The position numbers and the translations under genes are program-made. The notes under the pieces were generated by a model. It worked only from the letters and a program-made list of their open reading frames with translations. It was not told the DNA's origin and did not search any database. Shown here piece after piece: positions 18,672-46,212 of a stretch of 55,555 nt of DNA; position 1 is the first letter of the stretch, and every line of letters begins with the position of its first letter. The DNA is from Dehalococcoidia bacterium (GTDB lineage Bacteria; Chloroflexota; Dehalococcoidia; Lucifugimonadales; Lucifugimonadaceae), in assembly GCA_002708085.1 (NCBI GenBank), contig PAOU01000011.1, positions 1 to 55,555 on the forward strand. Reading direction: 5' to 3'.

Positions 18672-19742
18672 TTAGTTGGGGTTTACTTGAATATTTTTTG
18701 GAATTTGCTTTACTAAAATGTCAAAAATTATTAATGGATTCACATTCATATCTAGTGTTTTTTTTGAAGACGAAAGATAATTTAACAGAATAAGAGTTTT
18801 TGAAATTGGTATTATAGAAGCAATTTTTTTTGTTTCATCAAAATACTTAGAATAAATAATTTGATGATCTTGATTTGTTTGAATCATTAAAATATCTCTA
18901 CACCAATTTGACCAGCAATCTAATTCGTTTTTTACAGAATCTTTGTTTTTTTTATATTGTCCAGATAATTCATTAGAATATTGTAATTGTTTTGATAAAG
19001 GATTTTTTAATAAATTTAATATTCTTTCAATGGTTTGATTTTGATTGTCTAAAATTATTGGATTTTCTATAATATTAATTGCTTTCCCAAAGCAACCTTG
19101 TGACAGTTTTGCTATAGTACTTAGTTTTTCAGTTTTTTCCGGATAAGTCATTTCTAATAATTTTTCTATGTTTTTAGAAGGTAGAGGAAAAAGTTTATAG
19201 GATTGACATCTTGATTTGATTGTTAAAGGTAAAAAATCTAAAGATTGCACTAATAAAATTAGTAGAAAATTTGGAGATCCTTCTTCTAATATTTTTAATA
19301 AATGATCAATGGATTCTTTTCTTAGTAAATGTGAGTCTTCTACTATAATAACTTGATAATTTCCGTAGAAAGGTTTTATTTGAGATTTTCCTAATATTAA
19401 ATCTCTAACAACACATATTGAAATCACAGTTTGTTTTGTAGTTGGGCCACAACATTTTCTTTCATCATTTTTTTTAGGGTTTGAACATACTGATTCTTTA
19501 TTAATAATTAATACATCAGGGTGATTATTAGAATTAATTCGTTTACATTGGTCACATGAACAATCTTCGACTCCTTTTTCACCTTTACAGTTGATCTCCT
19601 TGGATATATCTAGAGCTAGTGTAGTTTTTCCAGAATTTTTAGGTCCAGAAATAATAATTGAATGTGGTAAAGGATTAGATTTACAGACTTCTTTAAGGCT
19701 GTTAATTACTTTAGGATAACCTAATGTTTGCCAAGAACTAAT
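18672..19742 (-). CDS. holB: DNA polymerase III delta' subunit-like / DnaX-like clamp-loader ATPase; apparent ATT start
   Basis: Reverse-strand translation from ATT at 19742: (I/M)SSWQTLGYPKVINSLKEVCKSNPLPHSIIISGPKNSGKTTLALDISKEINCKGEKGVEDCSCDQCKRINSNNHPDVLIIN... continuing in frame into the listed 251-aa ORF (VIIVEDSHLLRKESIDHLLKILEEGSPNFLLIL, IKSRCQSY). Walker A and zinc-type Cys cluster are upstream of the listed ATG at 19427. Confidence 0.82.
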   Translation of the reverse strand: MSSWQTLGYPKVINSLKEVCKSNPLPHSIIISGPKNSGKTTLALDISKEINCKGEKGVEDCSCDQCKRINSNNHPDVLIINKESVCSNPKKNDERKCCGPTTKQTVISICVVRDLILGKSQIKPFYGNYQVIIVEDSHLLRKESIDHLLKILEEGSPNFLLILLVQSLDFLPLTIKSRCQSYKLFPLPSKNIEKLLEMTYPEKTEKLSTIAKLSQGCFGKAINIIENPIILDNQNQTIERILNLLKNPLSKQLQYSNELSGQYKKNKDSVKNELDCWSNWCRDILMIQTNQDHQIIYSKYFDETKKIASIIPISKTLILLNYLSSSKKTLDMNVNPLIIFDILVKQIPKNIQVNPN

Positions 19743-19764
19743 TTAAACCTCCAGATTTAAAAGT

Positions 19765-21081
19765 TTAAACAAAATGAGAGAGTAAATCTTCATGGGTTTC
19801 TCTTCTTTTTATTACTTGATGATTACCTTTGTTAACTATTATTATAGTAGGCCTGCAGTACATATTATAATTGCTAGACATAGCAATATTATACGCCCCA
19901 GATGTAGCTGAGATAATTAAATCATTATGGTTTAATTTTGGAAGGTAAGTTTCGTTGGATAAAATATCGCCTGATTCACAAAATTTTCCTACTATAGTAA
20001 CTTTTTCTGTAGTTTCTTCTAAAATTTTTGTTACAGGGAATATAGAATATTCTGATTGGTATAACGCAGGTCTAATATTATCTCCCATTCCTCCATCTAT
20101 ACTTACATATTTTCTTACTCCAGGAATATTTTTTATGCTTCCTATTTTATAAATTGCTACTCCTGATCTTGCTACTATCGATCTTCCTGGTTCAACTATG
20201 AGATGAGGTTTAGGTAATGAAAGTTCATCACATTTTTTTATTATTGTTTCAGATATCGCATCTGCATATTCTTTAACACTAGGAGGTTTTTTATCCTTAG
20301 ATGTATAAGTAACAGCAAATCCTCCTCCAGGGTTAAAGATTTTTAAGTTTAAGCCATTATTTCTTTGCTGATGAGCAAATTCTAATACGTAATTTATTGC
20401 GAGGACATACGGTTTTGTCTCAAAAATAGGAGACCCTAAATGAAAATGAATACCTTGTAAGTCTAGGTTAGACATTTTTGTGGTTAATTTTATCGCTTCT
20501 TCAGCTTGTCCTGTTTCAATAGGAAACCCAAACTTAGAATCTAGTGTTCCAGTAGTAGTTAAAATGTGAGTTTTAGGGTCAACACTAGGAGAGACTCTGA
20601 TTAAGACCTTTTGAGTTTTTGATGACTCAGAAGCTATTTTATTTAACAAAGAAATTTCATCAAAACTATCTAAAGTAATTGTTTCGATATCCCAATCTAC
20701 AGCTTGTTTTAGTTCTTCATATGATTTGTTATTACCATGAAAATTGACTTTATTTGAAGGAAATTTTGAATATTGAAGTACTGATAATTCACCTCCTGAG
20801 ACAACATCTATTCCTAGATTTTCATCTTCTAAAATCTTTGTAAGATGTGGACTAGAAAATGCTTTTGAAGAATAAGAAATATGGGAATTAGGATAGGATT
20901 GTTTAAATTCATTAACGAATTCTTTACAGATTTCTCTAATGGTACTCTCATCATATACGTAAAGAGGTGTACCATAGATATTTGAAATTTCTTCTAAATT
21001 ACATCCTCCTATTTCTAAAATTCCCTCTTCATTAACTTGAGAAGTAATAGGAAGTATGTTTTTTATATTTTCATTCAACAT
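19765..21081 (-). CDS. lysA: Diaminopimelate decarboxylase
   Basis: PLYVYDE, SYSSKAF PLP-lysine region, HFHLGSPIF, NPGGGFAV, EPGRSIVA. Confidence 0.95.
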   Translation of the reverse strand: MLNENIKNILPITSQVNEEGILEIGGCNLEEISNIYGTPLYVYDESTIREICKEFVNEFKQSYPNSHISYSSKAFSSPHLTKILEDENLGIDVVSGGELSVLQYSKFPSNKVNFHGNNKSYEELKQAVDWDIETITLDSFDEISLLNKIASESSKTQKVLIRVSPSVDPKTHILTTTGTLDSKFGFPIETGQAEEAIKLTTKMSNLDLQGIHFHLGSPIFETKPYVLAINYVLEFAHQQRNNGLNLKIFNPGGGFAVTYTSKDKKPPSVKEYADAISETIIKKCDELSLPKPHLIVEPGRSIVARSGVAIYKIGSIKNIPGVRKYVSIDGGMGDNIRPALYQSEYSIFPVTKILEETTEKVTIVGKFCESGDILSNETYLPKLNHNDLIISATSGAYNIAMSSNYNMYCRPTIIIVNKGNHQVIKRRETHEDLLSHFV

Positions 21082-21132
21082 ATTTGTATAATTTATTTTG
21101 TTTAAAATTTCTTATTTTGTCTAATCTTTATT

Positions 21133-21780
21133 TTATGTAATTTTTTTTATAATTGAATTATTATATTCCCTAAGAATTTCTTCAGTATTCAAACCCATTT
21201 CTTCAAGGCTTGAAACTAAATTAAATAATTTTATTGATATTTCTTCTTTAGATATTTCTTCTTTAGATTTTAATTCAAAAGTAATTTTTTGGGGGATTGT
21301 TTGTTTTTTTATTAAGTTAAGTTTTTTAGCTCTTGAATATAAACTTGCAGATTTTAATAGGGAAGGAAGGTGGTTGGGTATATTTTTTATTAAAGACAAA
21401 GGATCTTCATTTTCTTCTAGTTTTATTTTATCCCATTGTTTATGAACTTCTTTTAAATTTAAGTTACTTTTTTCTGAAGAGAAAATATGAGGATGCCTTC
21501 TTTTAAGTTTTAATGTGGCTTTTTGTAGTATTTCATCAATAAAAAACTTTTTTTCTTTTTTCCCTATATCAGCATGAAAAATGATATGAATAATTATATC
21601 GCCTAGTTCCTCAACAATTTTTTCCTTATCTTTTTCTTCTATAGCAGACACTAATTCATATACTTCTTCAATTAATAAAGTTTTTAATGAGTCATGAGTT
21701 TGTTTTCTGTCCCAGGGACATCCGTTAGAGCTTCTTAAGGTTTCTATTACTTTAATTAATTCTTCAAAATCTCTAGACAT
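21133..21780 (-). CDS. mazG: MazG family nucleotide pyrophosphohydrolase
   Basis: LRSSNGCPWDRKQTHDSLKTLLIEEVYELVSAIE, EELGDIIIHIIFHADI. Confidence 0.93.
   Translation of the reverse strand: MSRDFEELIKVIETLRSSNGCPWDRKQTHDSLKTLLIEEVYELVSAIEEKDKEKIVEELGDIIIHIIFHADIGKKEKKFFIDEILQKATLKLKRRHPHIFSSEKSNLNLKEVHKQWDKIKLEENEDPLSLIKNIPNHLPSLLKSASLYSRAKKLNLIKKQTIPQKITFELKSKEEISKEEISIKLFNLVSSLEEMGLNTEEILREYNNSIIKKIT
21239..21268. repeat. Exact tandem 15-bp duplication inside mazG
   Basis: atttcttctttagat x2; encodes KEEIS-KEEIS on the minus strand. Confidence 0.95.
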
Positions 21781-21848
21781 AGTACAAAATTTCTCCTAAG
21801 TTATGGAAACAATTAATATATTTATATGTTTACAAGAAAATTAATTTT

Positions 21849-22526
21849 ATGAAAGTAGTAGTTTTAATTTTTAAAGGATTATTTGTTATAAGTGTGCCTA
21901 TTCTTTTGATAATCATTGCATCAGATGTTGTCATTAAAACATCATTTATTTATGAATATGATTATTGGAAATACAACATAACTGAAAGGACTAATATTGA
22001 TTTAAATAATTTGAGAGAAATAGGAAGAGATATTAGAGATTACTTTGAGAATGATCAAGAATATTTATCAATTGAGACTACTGTAAATAATCAGAAAAAA
22101 TATTTGTTTAATCAAAGAGAAGTAGAACATATGAAAGATGTTAAAAATCTCATTAATTTTCTAGATTTTATAGGGTTGATTTTAGGTTCTATTTTAATAG
22201 TTTTTTCCTGTTTATTATTTTTTTATGATAAATATTGGAAAAAAACTCTCGTAAATTTAATATTTTCAAGTGGGCTGTTCAGCATCTTTTTAATAATAAG
22301 TATTTTATTAATTTTTTTAGCTTTTTTTGATTATTTTTTTATTTTGTTTCATGAGATTAGTTTTTCAAATGATCTTTGGATTCTGAATCCTAAAACTGAT
22401 TATTTAATAATGATTTTCCCAGAGAAATTTTTTAGAGATGCTTCTTATTTAATAGGATTAATTTCTATTTTAGAATTTTTATTTTTTTATTTGATAATTA
22501 GATATTTATTTAGATTTAAAGGTTAA
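21849..22526 (+). CDS. DUF1461/TIGR01906-like integral membrane protein
   Basis: Multiple TM helices and the soluble segment LREIGRDIRDYFENDQEYLSI...LFNQREVEHMKDVKNL. Confidence 0.65.
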   Translation: MKVVVLIFKGLFVISVPILLIIIASDVVIKTSFIYEYDYWKYNITERTNIDLNNLREIGRDIRDYFENDQEYLSIETTVNNQKKYLFNQREVEHMKDVKNLINFLDFIGLILGSILIVFSCLLFFYDKYWKKTLVNLIFSSGLFSIFLIISILLIFLAFFDYFFILFHEISFSNDLWILNPKTDYLIMIFPEKFFRDASYLIGLISILEFLFFYLIIRYLFRFKG

Positions 22527-23250
22527 CAAAATTCTCAATTTCAGTAATATTACTGATTGTGAGATCTTTATTTTTTGAGTTATTTTTATTATTGATCCAA
22601 ATAGAGTTAAATCCACAATTTTTTGATCCTAAGATATCTGCAGTGTAATTGTCTCCAATATGAAATATTTCTTGACTGGGTACCATTAATTTTTTAATTG
22701 CAATCTCAAAAATATTTTTTGATGGTTTTGCAGTTTCTAATTCATTCGACAATAAGATAAATTGAAAATATTTTAGTAAACCAATTTTTTCTAAATAGAT
22801 ATTGTATGTTTTAGGAGAAGTAAATCCAGTATTAGAAATCAGGCATATCTTATATTTTTTTTTATATATATTTTTAATAAGTTCTTCTACTCCATCAATA
22901 ACTTGAGGAGGATATTTTAGAAAAGCTTTATCAATTATTTTCCCTATAGAAATATTAATTTTTCTTGTTGGGACAATTTTTTCTTTCTGAGAAATTTTCT
23001 CTATTAATTGATTCACTCTATTATCAAAATTTATATCAATTCCTTTTTTATGATCTTCAGTGCATTGTTCTCTTATGTAATTCAATGAAATTTTGATGTT
23101 TTCTAAAGTAATTTTTGAGTTAATTTTTGATAATAATATGAGAATTTCATTAATTCTATATTCAGATCTATTTTCTCCCATTTGAGGTGAATCTTTAATT
23201 AAAGTGTCCCATAGATCGAAAGATATAGCTGAGATTTTTTTATAATTCAT
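22516..23250 (-). CDS. HAD-superfamily hydrolase
   Basis: SFDLWDTLI, ICLISNTG, AKPSKNIFEIAIKKL, FHIGDNYTADILGSKNCGF. Confidence 0.85.
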   Translation of the reverse strand: MNYKKISAISFDLWDTLIKDSPQMGENRSEYRINEILILLSKINSKITLENIKISLNYIREQCTEDHKKGIDINFDNRVNQLIEKISQKEKIVPTRKINISIGKIIDKAFLKYPPQVIDGVEELIKNIYKKKYKICLISNTGFTSPKTYNIYLEKIGLLKYFQFILLSNELETAKPSKNIFEIAIKKLMVPSQEIFHIGDNYTADILGSKNCGFNSIWINNKNNSKNKDLTISNITEIENFVNL

Positions 23251-23323
23251 ATTTAAGATGTTTGTGTTTTTTTTGAACTAGGTAATAATAAATAATAACT
23301 AATTTTATGAGTAAGGAAAATAA

Positions 23324-24307
23324 TTGATAATAGTTACAGGATGTTCAGGTTTTATTGGGTTTCATCTTTCTAAGGAATTGTTAAATAATAATTTGCCAGT
23401 ATTAGGTATTGATAATTTAATTTCTTCACAAAATATTCTTAAAAATTGGAGGTTAGAACAATTAAAGAATTATGGAATAAATTTTATAGATGTAGATATT
23501 ACGAATAAAGCAGAATTAAATAAAAAAATAAGAGACATAAATTTTTCTGGAAATTTTTCTACAATTTATCATTTAGCCGGATTAGCAGGAGTAAGGCAAT
23601 CAGTTCTAGAACCAAAGAAATATTACAATAATAATGTTATGGGGACTATTAATATGTTGAATATAGCTACAGAATTTTCTTTAGAATCTTTTGTTTTTGC
23701 TTCTTCTTCTAGTGTTTATGGGCTTCAAGATAATAGAATTCCTTTCGTAGAAAATGAAACATTAGAAAGTCCTCAATCTCCATATGCATTTTCTAAGTTA
23801 TTTGCTGAATTAATTTCTAAGGATTATTCTAATATTTCTTCTTTGAATGTATCTTTATTAAGATTTTTTACGGTTTATGGTCCTGCTGGAAGGATTGATA
23901 TGAGTATTTTGAAGTTTATCCATAATATTATTAATGAAAATCCTATAAATATTTATGGAGATGGTTTTCAAGAAAGAGATTTTACATATGTGGAAGATAT
24001 TTGCGAAGGAATTATAAAATCTAGTAGAGTTGACGGCTTTGAAACATTTAACTTAGGGTCATCACAACCTTACTCTATAATTAAGGTTCTAAGCATATTA
24101 AAAGAAATAATTAATAAAGAACCAAAAATAGAATATCTTCCAAAGCATTACGCTGATGTGAATTATACGTGGGCAAATATTGATAAAGCTAAGTCACTTT
24201 TGAAATGGCATCCTAAAACAAGTTTAGAAAATGGATTAGAAAAGACAGTGGATTGGTATAAAAATAACAAAGATTTGTTAGCATCAACTTTTGAAAAATT
24301 TAATTGA
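23324..24307 (+). CDS. NAD-dependent sugar epimerase/dehydratase
   Basis: VTGCSGFIGFHLSKELL, SSSSVYG, YAFSKLFAE, nucleotide-sugar epimerase-like C-terminus. TTG start. Confidence 0.88.
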   Translation: MIIVTGCSGFIGFHLSKELLNNNLPVLGIDNLISSQNILKNWRLEQLKNYGINFIDVDITNKAELNKKIRDINFSGNFSTIYHLAGLAGVRQSVLEPKKYYNNNVMGTINMLNIATEFSLESFVFASSSSVYGLQDNRIPFVENETLESPQSPYAFSKLFAELISKDYSNISSLNVSLLRFFTVYGPAGRIDMSILKFIHNIINENPINIYGDGFQERDFTYVEDICEGIIKSSRVDGFETFNLGSSQPYSIIKVLSILKEIINKEPKIEYLPKHYADVNYTWANIDKAKSLLKWHPKTSLENGLEKTVDWYKNNKDLLASTFEKFN

Positions 24308-24334
24308 AATTATACGAATAGATGGAGATTTAAA

Positions 24335-25522
24335 ATTTTACTTTCTAAAATTTCTCTAAAAAACTTTAGGAATCATGTTGATACTTCTATTGATTTAGCT
24401 CCAGGTTTAAATATATTTTTTGGTTCTAATGGTCAAGGTAAAAGCAATTTTGTTGAAAGCATTTATTTGCTAGCTATTGGAAAAACATCTAGATCATCTT
24501 TTGATCAAGAATTAATTAATTATGAAATCAATTCAGGAGATAATTGTTCAATTAAAGCAATTGGATCAGATGGTCCCATTTTGTTCAATATAGAATTTGA
24601 ATTAAAACAAGATATAAAAAATTCAAATTCTAGTATTGAAGATAATAAGGCATTTAAGTATAAAAAAATCTTAAAAATAAATGGAGCTAAAGTTTCTTTG
24701 AATTCTTTTGTAGGCGTTTTTAATGTTGTTATGTTTGAAGCTAATGATTTAATGTTAATTTTTGGAGCTCCTATATTAAGAAGGAGATTTTTAGATATCT
24801 TAATTTCACAAACTGACATTCAGTATTTGAAAGCTCTTCAAAGATATAATCAGGTTATAAAAAATAGGAATAGAATTTTGAAGAATATTTCTTTAAATAA
24901 TTCTAACTATAATGAGTTAAAATTTTGGACAGATAAATTGATTGAAGATGGAAGTATGATAATGTATTTCCGACATAAAATAATTCAGAATTTATTTCAA
25001 CGTACAAGTATTTTATATGATCAATTATCTATAGAAAATGAAACTTTAGAAATAATATATCATCCTAATTTGAAATACTCAGATGATATTGATTTAAAAA
25101 ATCAATTGATACAAAAAAATGACTATGAAAAATTTATTTTTGAATCTATTGAGAGAAAAAAGAATGATGAATTAAGATATGGAACTTCATTAGTTGGCCC
25201 TCACAGAGATGATTTAGATATAAAATTGTCAGGATTTAATATTTCTAATTATGCTTCTAGAGGTCAAATAAGATCTATAGTATTGGCATTAAAGTTAGCT
25301 GAAGCTGAAATTATTAGTGAAATAAAAGAAAGTGATCCTGTAATTATTTTAGATGATGTAATGTCAGAAATGGATTCAGATAGAAGAAGATTAGTTTTAC
25401 AATTAATTAATAATTATGATCAGGTTTTAATTACAGTTCCAGACAGAAAATTATTAGATCAACCCAATCTGAAGTATTCAAAATTATTTAATGTTAATAA
25501 AGGCAAAATTAATATTTTATAA
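24335..25522 (+). CDS. recF: DNA replication and repair protein RecF; apparent ATT start
   Basis: Translation from ATT at 24335: (I/M)LLSKISLKNFRNHVDTSIDLAPGLNIFFGSNGQGKSNFVESIYLLAIGKTSRSS... through C-terminal YGTSLVGPHRDDLDIKL, YASRGQIRSIVLALKLAEAEI, ILDDVMSEMD. The listed TTG at 24467 would delete Walker A. Confidence 0.9.
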   Translation: MLLSKISLKNFRNHVDTSIDLAPGLNIFFGSNGQGKSNFVESIYLLAIGKTSRSSFDQELINYEINSGDNCSIKAIGSDGPILFNIEFELKQDIKNSNSSIEDNKAFKYKKILKINGAKVSLNSFVGVFNVVMFEANDLMLIFGAPILRRRFLDILISQTDIQYLKALQRYNQVIKNRNRILKNISLNNSNYNELKFWTDKLIEDGSMIMYFRHKIIQNLFQRTSILYDQLSIENETLEIIYHPNLKYSDDIDLKNQLIQKNDYEKFIFESIERKKNDELRYGTSLVGPHRDDLDIKLSGFNISNYASRGQIRSIVLALKLAEAEIISEIKESDPVIILDDVMSEMDSDRRRLVLQLINNYDQVLITVPDRKLLDQPNLKYSKLFNVNKGKINIL

Positions 25523-45016: not shown

Positions 45017-46212
45017 ATGATAAAAATTATTAAAAATGGTTCAATTACTACTCCAAAAGGTTTTAAAGCTGGTGCTGTTTATGCTGGACTTAAAAGCCCT
45101 GGAGAAGATAAATATGATTTGGGAATAATTTATTCCTCTTCCCCTTCAAATTGGGCTGGTGTATTCACCAAAAATAAAATTGTTTCTCCTTCAGTAGTTT
45201 TAAGTAAATCTCTACCCGATATTATTCAAGGAGTAGTGGTAAATAGTGGGTCAGCTAATTGTTGCGTTGGTGATCAGGGCATGAGTGATGCAAGAGAATT
45301 AGTAGATCTTACCAAAAAACATTTGAATTCAGATCTTGATTTTGTTTTATGTAGTACAGGTGTAATAGGTGTTGAGTTGCCTATGGGATTAATAAGAGAA
45401 AATTTAGGAAAAATCAATGTTAATGATTCAGGAGGATCTGATTTTTCGAAATCAATTATAACTACAGATACAATTACTAAAGAAATTTCTATTGAGATAG
45501 AGCATGATGGTGAAAAAATTCATATTTCTGGTGTAGCTAAGGGTTCCGGCATGATTCATCCGAATATGGCTACAATGTTAGCTTTCATAACTACTGATGC
45601 AAAATCTGAATCATCTTATTTAAAGAAAGTTTTGAAAAATGTAGTTGATAAAACTTTTAATCAAATAGATGTTGATGGTGATACTAGTACTAATGATTCA
45701 GTTATTTTATTAGCTAATGGAGAATCAGGACAAAAAATTGATGAAAATTCTTCAATGCACGATGATTTCTTAAAAGGATTACATATTGTTGCTGAGGATT
45801 TATCAAAAAAATTGCTATTGATGCAGAAGGAGCACAACATTTAATTACAGCAAAAGTACAAGGAGCTATTAATAGTGTAGAGGCTAGACTTATAGCAAAA
45901 GAAATAGTTTCTTCAAATCTTGTAAAAACTGCTGTTTATGGAAGAGATCCTAATTGGGGCAGAATAATGATGGCTATAGGTAACTCTGATTCTAATATCA
46001 AAGAAGATAAGATAAAAATATTTATTAATGATATTCAAATTGTTGAAGAAGGAAAATCTATTCCTTTTAATCCAACATCTGTGATTGCAGCTCTTACGAA
46101 ATCAGAAGTAGAGATATTAGTAGATCTGGGTATTGGAAATGGTGATGGATGTGCTTGGGGTAGTGATTTAACTGAAGAATATGTTGTTTTTAATTCAGCC
46201 TATAGAACATAA
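45017..46212 (+). pseudogene. argJ: Glutamate N-acetyltransferase/amino-acid acetyltransferase ArgJ, interrupted by a -1 frame change at an A7 tract (45805-45811)
   Basis: First frame covers the N-terminus through KGSGMIHPNMATMLAFITTDA. The continuation AIDAEGAQHLITAKVQGAINSVEARLIAKEIVSSNLVKTAVYGRDPNWGRIMMAIGNSD... is in the -1 frame. Functional status unknown: mutation, assembly error, or recoding/slippage. Confidence 0.88.

Follow-up and report, generated by a model that had tools for sequence, protein, structure and literature searches.

To our knowledge, conserved start codons other than AUG, GUG and UUG occur in very few bacterial genes. The classic example is infC, which is autoregulated by IF3 and carries an AUH start, i.e., ATT, ATC or ATA. 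A further example is the E. coli gene pcnB, whose AUU start holds down a protein that does harm when overproduced. The infC gene starts with ATT in E. coli and with ATC in Streptomyces, and this start is discriminated by IF3 (PMC5472188). In Streptomyces, the gene sigR starts with GTC or GTT; the start is conserved and combined with a strong RBS, its repression by IF3 was demonstrated experimentally, and the protein is kept scarce (PMC5472188). For non-canonical codons, the same paper gives a rise in output of 3- to 15-fold.

The window analyzed here is a stretch of 55,555 nucleotides from a marine SAR202 bacterium (Chloroflexota, Dehalococcoidia), represented by a 687-kb MAG that is 60% complete. 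The closest relative, G007, is a second species with 89–92% protein identity for the products of recF and holB. The named relatives identified by recF also belong to SAR202 and the Dehalococcoidia of the Chloroflexota. Two genes with an ATT start, recF and a holB-like gene, were identified in the window together with the following features:

23324..24307, + strand: epimerase gene (galE-like) with TTG start, upstream of recF (ORF table, sequence)
24324..24327, + strand: recF Shine-Dalgarno (SD) motif GGAG, 7-nt spacer to the ATT (sequence; SD also in G007)
24335..24337, + strand: recF start codon ATT (no alternative among ATG, GTG and TTG, together termed NTG; AUH at the aligned column in relatives)
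24335..25522, + strand: recF coding sequence, 395 aa when read from the ATT (TIGR00611, structure alignment, orthologs)
18672..19742, − strand: holB-like coding sequence from ATT (DNA polymerase III delta′ / clamp-loader AAA+), 356 aa (TIGR00678 as best family)
19740..19742, − strand: holB start codon ATT (TAA adjoining on the 5′ side; no early NTG)
19748..19752, − strand: holB SD motif GGAGG, 5-nt spacer to the ATT (sequence; SD also in G007)

The recF product belongs to the RecF family, as it reaches 286.3 bits against TIGR00611 (cut-off 172) over residues 3–367. It contains the Walker A motif GSNGQGKS and aligns from residue 3 with the solved RecF 5z67, and orthologs were found in 37 of 40 relatives. 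The reading frame is bounded by the TGA of the epimerase gene (24305–24307), 27 nt before the ATT. No ATG, GTG or TTG is present in the codon list of this frame between the TGA and codon 44, which is the first canonical codon and lies beyond the Walker A motif. In G007, recF has the identical ATT plus SD.

The name holB is used as a working name, since TIGR00678 is the best family of the product but its 124.3 bits are under the cut-off of 180.6. Matches to the holB-like protein were obtained in 39 of 40 relatives, and a separate dnaX-sized match was found beside them. A TAA adjoins the ATT on its 5′ side, and in this frame canonical codons occur only from codon 105 onward. The G007 protein is 89% identical from residue 1, and its gene shows the same SD and start as the window, with CTGGAGGTTTAA directly followed by ATT; in G006, GGAGG is followed by ATC at a distance of 5 nt. 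All seven members of the genus that have a holB locus carry an AUH start (three ATT, four ATC), five of these proteins being only 32–37% identical to the one of the window. In other genera an AUH start of holB was not clearly seen. As a separate observation, G003 (locus L159) was the sole genus member seen with an ATG start of recF, and its holB still starts with ATT.

Both ATT starts, already proposed in the initial annotation, were thus confirmed where they had been placed and are kept in G007. The strong, well-spaced SD motifs described there (GGAG at 7 nt for recF, GGAGG at 5 nt for holB) and the lack of an NTG before codons 44 and 105 were found as well, and the expected mis-truncation by 45–105 codons with loss of the ATPase motifs was right. 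Gene callers restricted to NTG cut or mis-extend recF; the window genome loses the ATP-binding motif in this way, as other genomes probably do.

The start of recF was surveyed at 80 loci of named public genomes related to SAR202, reading the first codon at the aligned column. It was ATC at 35, ATT at 20, ATA at 6, ATG at 11, GTG at 4 and TTG at one of the loci, and unclear at three. An AUH start is thus present in 61 of the 80 genomes; these 61 range from 25 to 66% GC and include the closed PacBio genome CP046147 of the cultured Ca. Lucifugimonas marina JH1073. The 16 relatives with an NTG start, among them G003, show that canonical starts are tolerated. In about three quarters of the AUH loci (48/61; 49/65) no canonical codon was found within 60 codons upstream. 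An in-frame NTG within this distance occurs in about one quarter, mostly in GC-rich genomes, and the internal NTGs lie nearly all beyond the invariant FRN motif. The mean SD match is 4.4 nt at AUH loci vs. 2.9 nt at NTG loci, with 1.4 nt for an upstream control, and the spacing at AUH loci is mostly 5–7 nt. The nearest upstream gene, where one was found, is located at −19 to 281 nt, and due to this wide variation translational coupling is not a common factor.

In a RecF tree of 93 rows, scored for AUH vs. NTG, the trait requires only five changes. One clade of 63 rows, comprising several families, consists of 61 AUH and two ATG loci, and the deepest AUH node has moderate support (SH-aLRT 89). 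Independent AUH cases were found elsewhere in the class (L117, L119/L120 and L222), where recF mostly has NTG starts. When 301 genomes from the whole phylum were scanned by pattern and the matched N-termini read by eye, the recF starts outside the class were only ATG, GTG and TTG.

By parsimony, the third base of the start codon changes 17 times in the 63-row clade, but only about 1.7 of these changes lead to G. From the fourfold sites of the same genes 14.9 ATG starts are expected, whereas two were observed (P about 5e-6 with tips treated as independent; P=0.013 after thinning to 30 representatives below 65% identity). The third base follows the GC content, with ATC in GC-rich and ATT or ATA in AT-rich genomes (mean GC4 of 0.64 for ATC, 0.39 for ATT and 0.37 for ATA). 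The initial annotation had proposed AUU as such; ATT is indeed used, but what is kept is AUH, with a third base set by GC content. The avoidance of G and the maintenance of AUH across most of the group suggest that weak RecF synthesis is selected for.

These features resemble those of the described systems. No canonical alternative, a conserved codon and a strong SD are three traits that recF and holB share with genes of the kind of infC, pcnB and sigR. Like infC, recF has an AUH start that is kept in distant species, and discrimination by IF3 is the property of infC. However, infC regulates itself, whereas RecF is a DNA-repair ATPase; since RecF has no known role in initiation, any control by IF3 would be one-way. 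The similarity to sigR comprises a non-canonical start whose third base is not G, a strong RBS or SD and conservation within a clade. The differences are GTC/GTT vs. AUH, one genus vs. several families, and a repression by IF3 that is experimental for sigR and probable by analogy for recF. The gene pcnB has the AUU start in common but is a different gene in a different lineage, and recF of other Chloroflexota belongs to the same family and has the same start column but an NTG start and a generally weaker SD. A report of an AUH start of recF was not found in the open-licence literature, which is weak evidence for novelty. As far as this literature goes, the type of mechanism is known from infC and sigR, and recF as the gene concerned and the phylogenetic depth appear to be new.

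To see how common such starts are in the genome, the window genome (G000) was compared with G007 over 502 ortholog pairs. In 14 of them, conserved sequence extends upstream of any possible ATG, GTG or TTG, and after inspection about 5–7 pairs (about 1%) are left as AUH starts. Those of holB, recF, folP and pyrD are convincing and have an SD, and pyrD is a likely AUH case also in G015, with ATC. In the ino1-like gene the ATT of the window genome corresponds to an ATG in G007; a gene for a gatA-like amidase probably starts with ATA. The likely AUH starts outside the window are:

C6:35140, − strand: folP
C9:47383, − strand: pyrD
C6:13127, + strand: ino1-like gene
C3:39749, + strand: gatA-like gene

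The AUH start of folP was not conserved beyond the sister species. The possible lineage-wide use of AUU proposed earlier therefore holds in so far as further genes were found (folP, pyrD, the ino1-like and probably the gatA-like gene), and the absence of other ATT starts in the genome and its relatives, which would have spoken against it, was not observed. A general shift, however, is not seen at about 1% of the pairs, and recF and holB, treated together as one trait, both have AUH but differ in scope, the former comprising a multi-family SAR202 clade and the latter only the genus of the window. The predicted enrichment of ATT after SD motifs did not appear: the tabulation over the 502 pairs showed ATG and TTG enriched and ATT not, a test of little power because the SD signal is weak genome-wide. 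AUU is a permitted minority codon in this lineage, not a genome-wide habit.

An EM start-site model allowing all codons was discarded as too noisy, since it called AAT, AAA and TAT starts, and aroE and a pyridoxamine-oxidase-like gene were rejected as non-canonical cases, as they have ordinary ATG starts masked by alignment gaps. Additionally, the usual N-terminus of rsmD (C11:83382, − strand) is apparently missing in the window genome and G007; stops are located just upstream, and conserved coding begins at an ATT.

The most probable explanation, to which we assign a probability of roughly 0.8 based on sequence comparison, is a genuine, selectively maintained weak AUH start: a strong SD aids it, IF3 probably discriminates against it, and RecF is thereby kept scarce. 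Translation of recF and holB would begin at AUU, where the initiator tRNA would pair with the first two bases and mismatch at the third, resulting in a weak start. The strong, well-spaced SD would compensate for this and rescue enough initiation, while IF3 would reject AUH starts and keep the rate of RecF synthesis low. In E. coli, excess RecF is harmful. By analogy with the described systems, we infer low expression of RecF, discrimination by IF3 and a benefit thereof. The weak start of recF would be ancient in SAR202 and kept by selection against AUG; holB may have gained this device in the genus of the window, and its use by a few other genes may be sporadic. A wider version is put forward more tentatively, at somewhat less than even odds: an ancient IF3-controlled set including recF, and holB in one genus, would tie the synthesis of repair and replication factors to the initiation status, with AUG being selected against at recF.

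A weak start codon would then have served over long periods as a regulatory trait in a gene other than infC, in dozens of species of an ocean group that is abundant worldwide, and IF3 would be a possible regulator of DNA repair. The prediction is directly testable, as Ca. Lucifugimonas marina is a cultured member of SAR202 (PMC10444878). In its strains JH545 and JH1073, the predicted RecF N-terminus is Met-Phe-Leu-Ser-Arg, encoded by ATC TTT CTA TCG CGG.

Real AUH starts do not have to be regulatory. They could be mildly weakened starts that are tolerated by drift where little product is needed, which we regard as rather unlikely, though as the most serious alternative among those considered. 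In its favor, the AUH starts of folP, pyrD, the ino1-like gene and further genes are confined, entirely or for the most part, to the window species and its sister; within this pair the ino1-like gene alternates between ATT and ATG, and many of the genomes are small and AT-rich. On the other hand, the 61 AUH members of the recF clade span a GC content of 0.25–0.66 and include 3-Mb genomes, and drift would often return ATG, whereas G is depleted at the third base and the SDs are stronger. That translation in fact begins at canonical codons elsewhere, by upstream extension or internal initiation, is very improbable. Upstream in-frame NTG codons do exist at some GC-rich recF loci, but most AUH loci lack one within 60 codons, the internal ones are mostly beyond the FRN motif, and for recF and holB of the window this possibility is refuted, as no alternative start keeps the ATPase motif. 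Assembly or sequencing errors changing ATG to ATT can practically be dismissed. The window MAG, incomplete as it is, does have other suspect sites, i.e., in-frame TGAs and a one-base indel in argJ (see below). However, the same ATT in G007 at both genes excludes a sequencing error, which the initial annotation had already considered unlikely, and dozens of independently assembled genomes, including the closed one of a cultured strain, have AUH at the aligned column of recF.

An altered initiation machinery that reads AUH efficiently, owing to a relaxed IF3 or to a special initiator tRNA, was considered with regard to infC and IF3, whose inspection had been suggested earlier. In most SAR202 relatives only ATA, ATC or ATT candidates are present at the expected start of infC, even at a GC content of 0.6 (loci L323–L349). 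This agrees with the known autoregulation by IF3 and makes an IF3-sensitive start of recF plausible. For infC of the window genome (C11:98936-99499) and of G007, TTG is the only candidate, and IF3 autoregulation was possibly lost in this branch; IF3 levels may therefore be set differently there. The missing AUH start of infC in the window species, together with the roughly 1% of ortholog pairs that force a non-NTG start, compared with only a handful of such starts, fewer than here, known in E. coli, would fit an altered machinery. Yet IF3 looks intact, aligning full length with solved IF3 sequences and having conserved C-terminal motifs, no special initiator tRNA was seen besides ordinary CAU tRNA-Met genes in these incomplete genomes, and ATG and TTG still start most genes. 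An altered machinery is thus improbable, and a weak start maintained by selection is preferred.

Finally, the in-frame stop scan on curated pairs of the window genome with G007 revealed seven in-frame TGAs in conserved genes, including alaS and uppS, at each of which G007 has GGA (Gly). Queries with all ORFs were swamped by antisense ORFs. The sites on the contigs of the window genome are:

C1:78380, C3:53322, C6:45316, C6:48892, C9:20193, C9:38921 and C11:104622: in-frame TGA

Neither GAA-to-TAA counterparts in the curated pairs nor a tRNA(UCA) were found, and in the 60%-complete assembly prfB was not seen. Recoding of UGA was rejected, since TGA terminates 88 of 452 conserved genes and prfB of G007 has the usual CTTTGAC frameshift site. 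An odd error, a strain mixture or glycine readthrough are candidate readings of these sites. In addition, argJ (45790–45820 of the window) is split by a one-base difference to G007 that probably reflects either an error in the assembly or a local frameshift.
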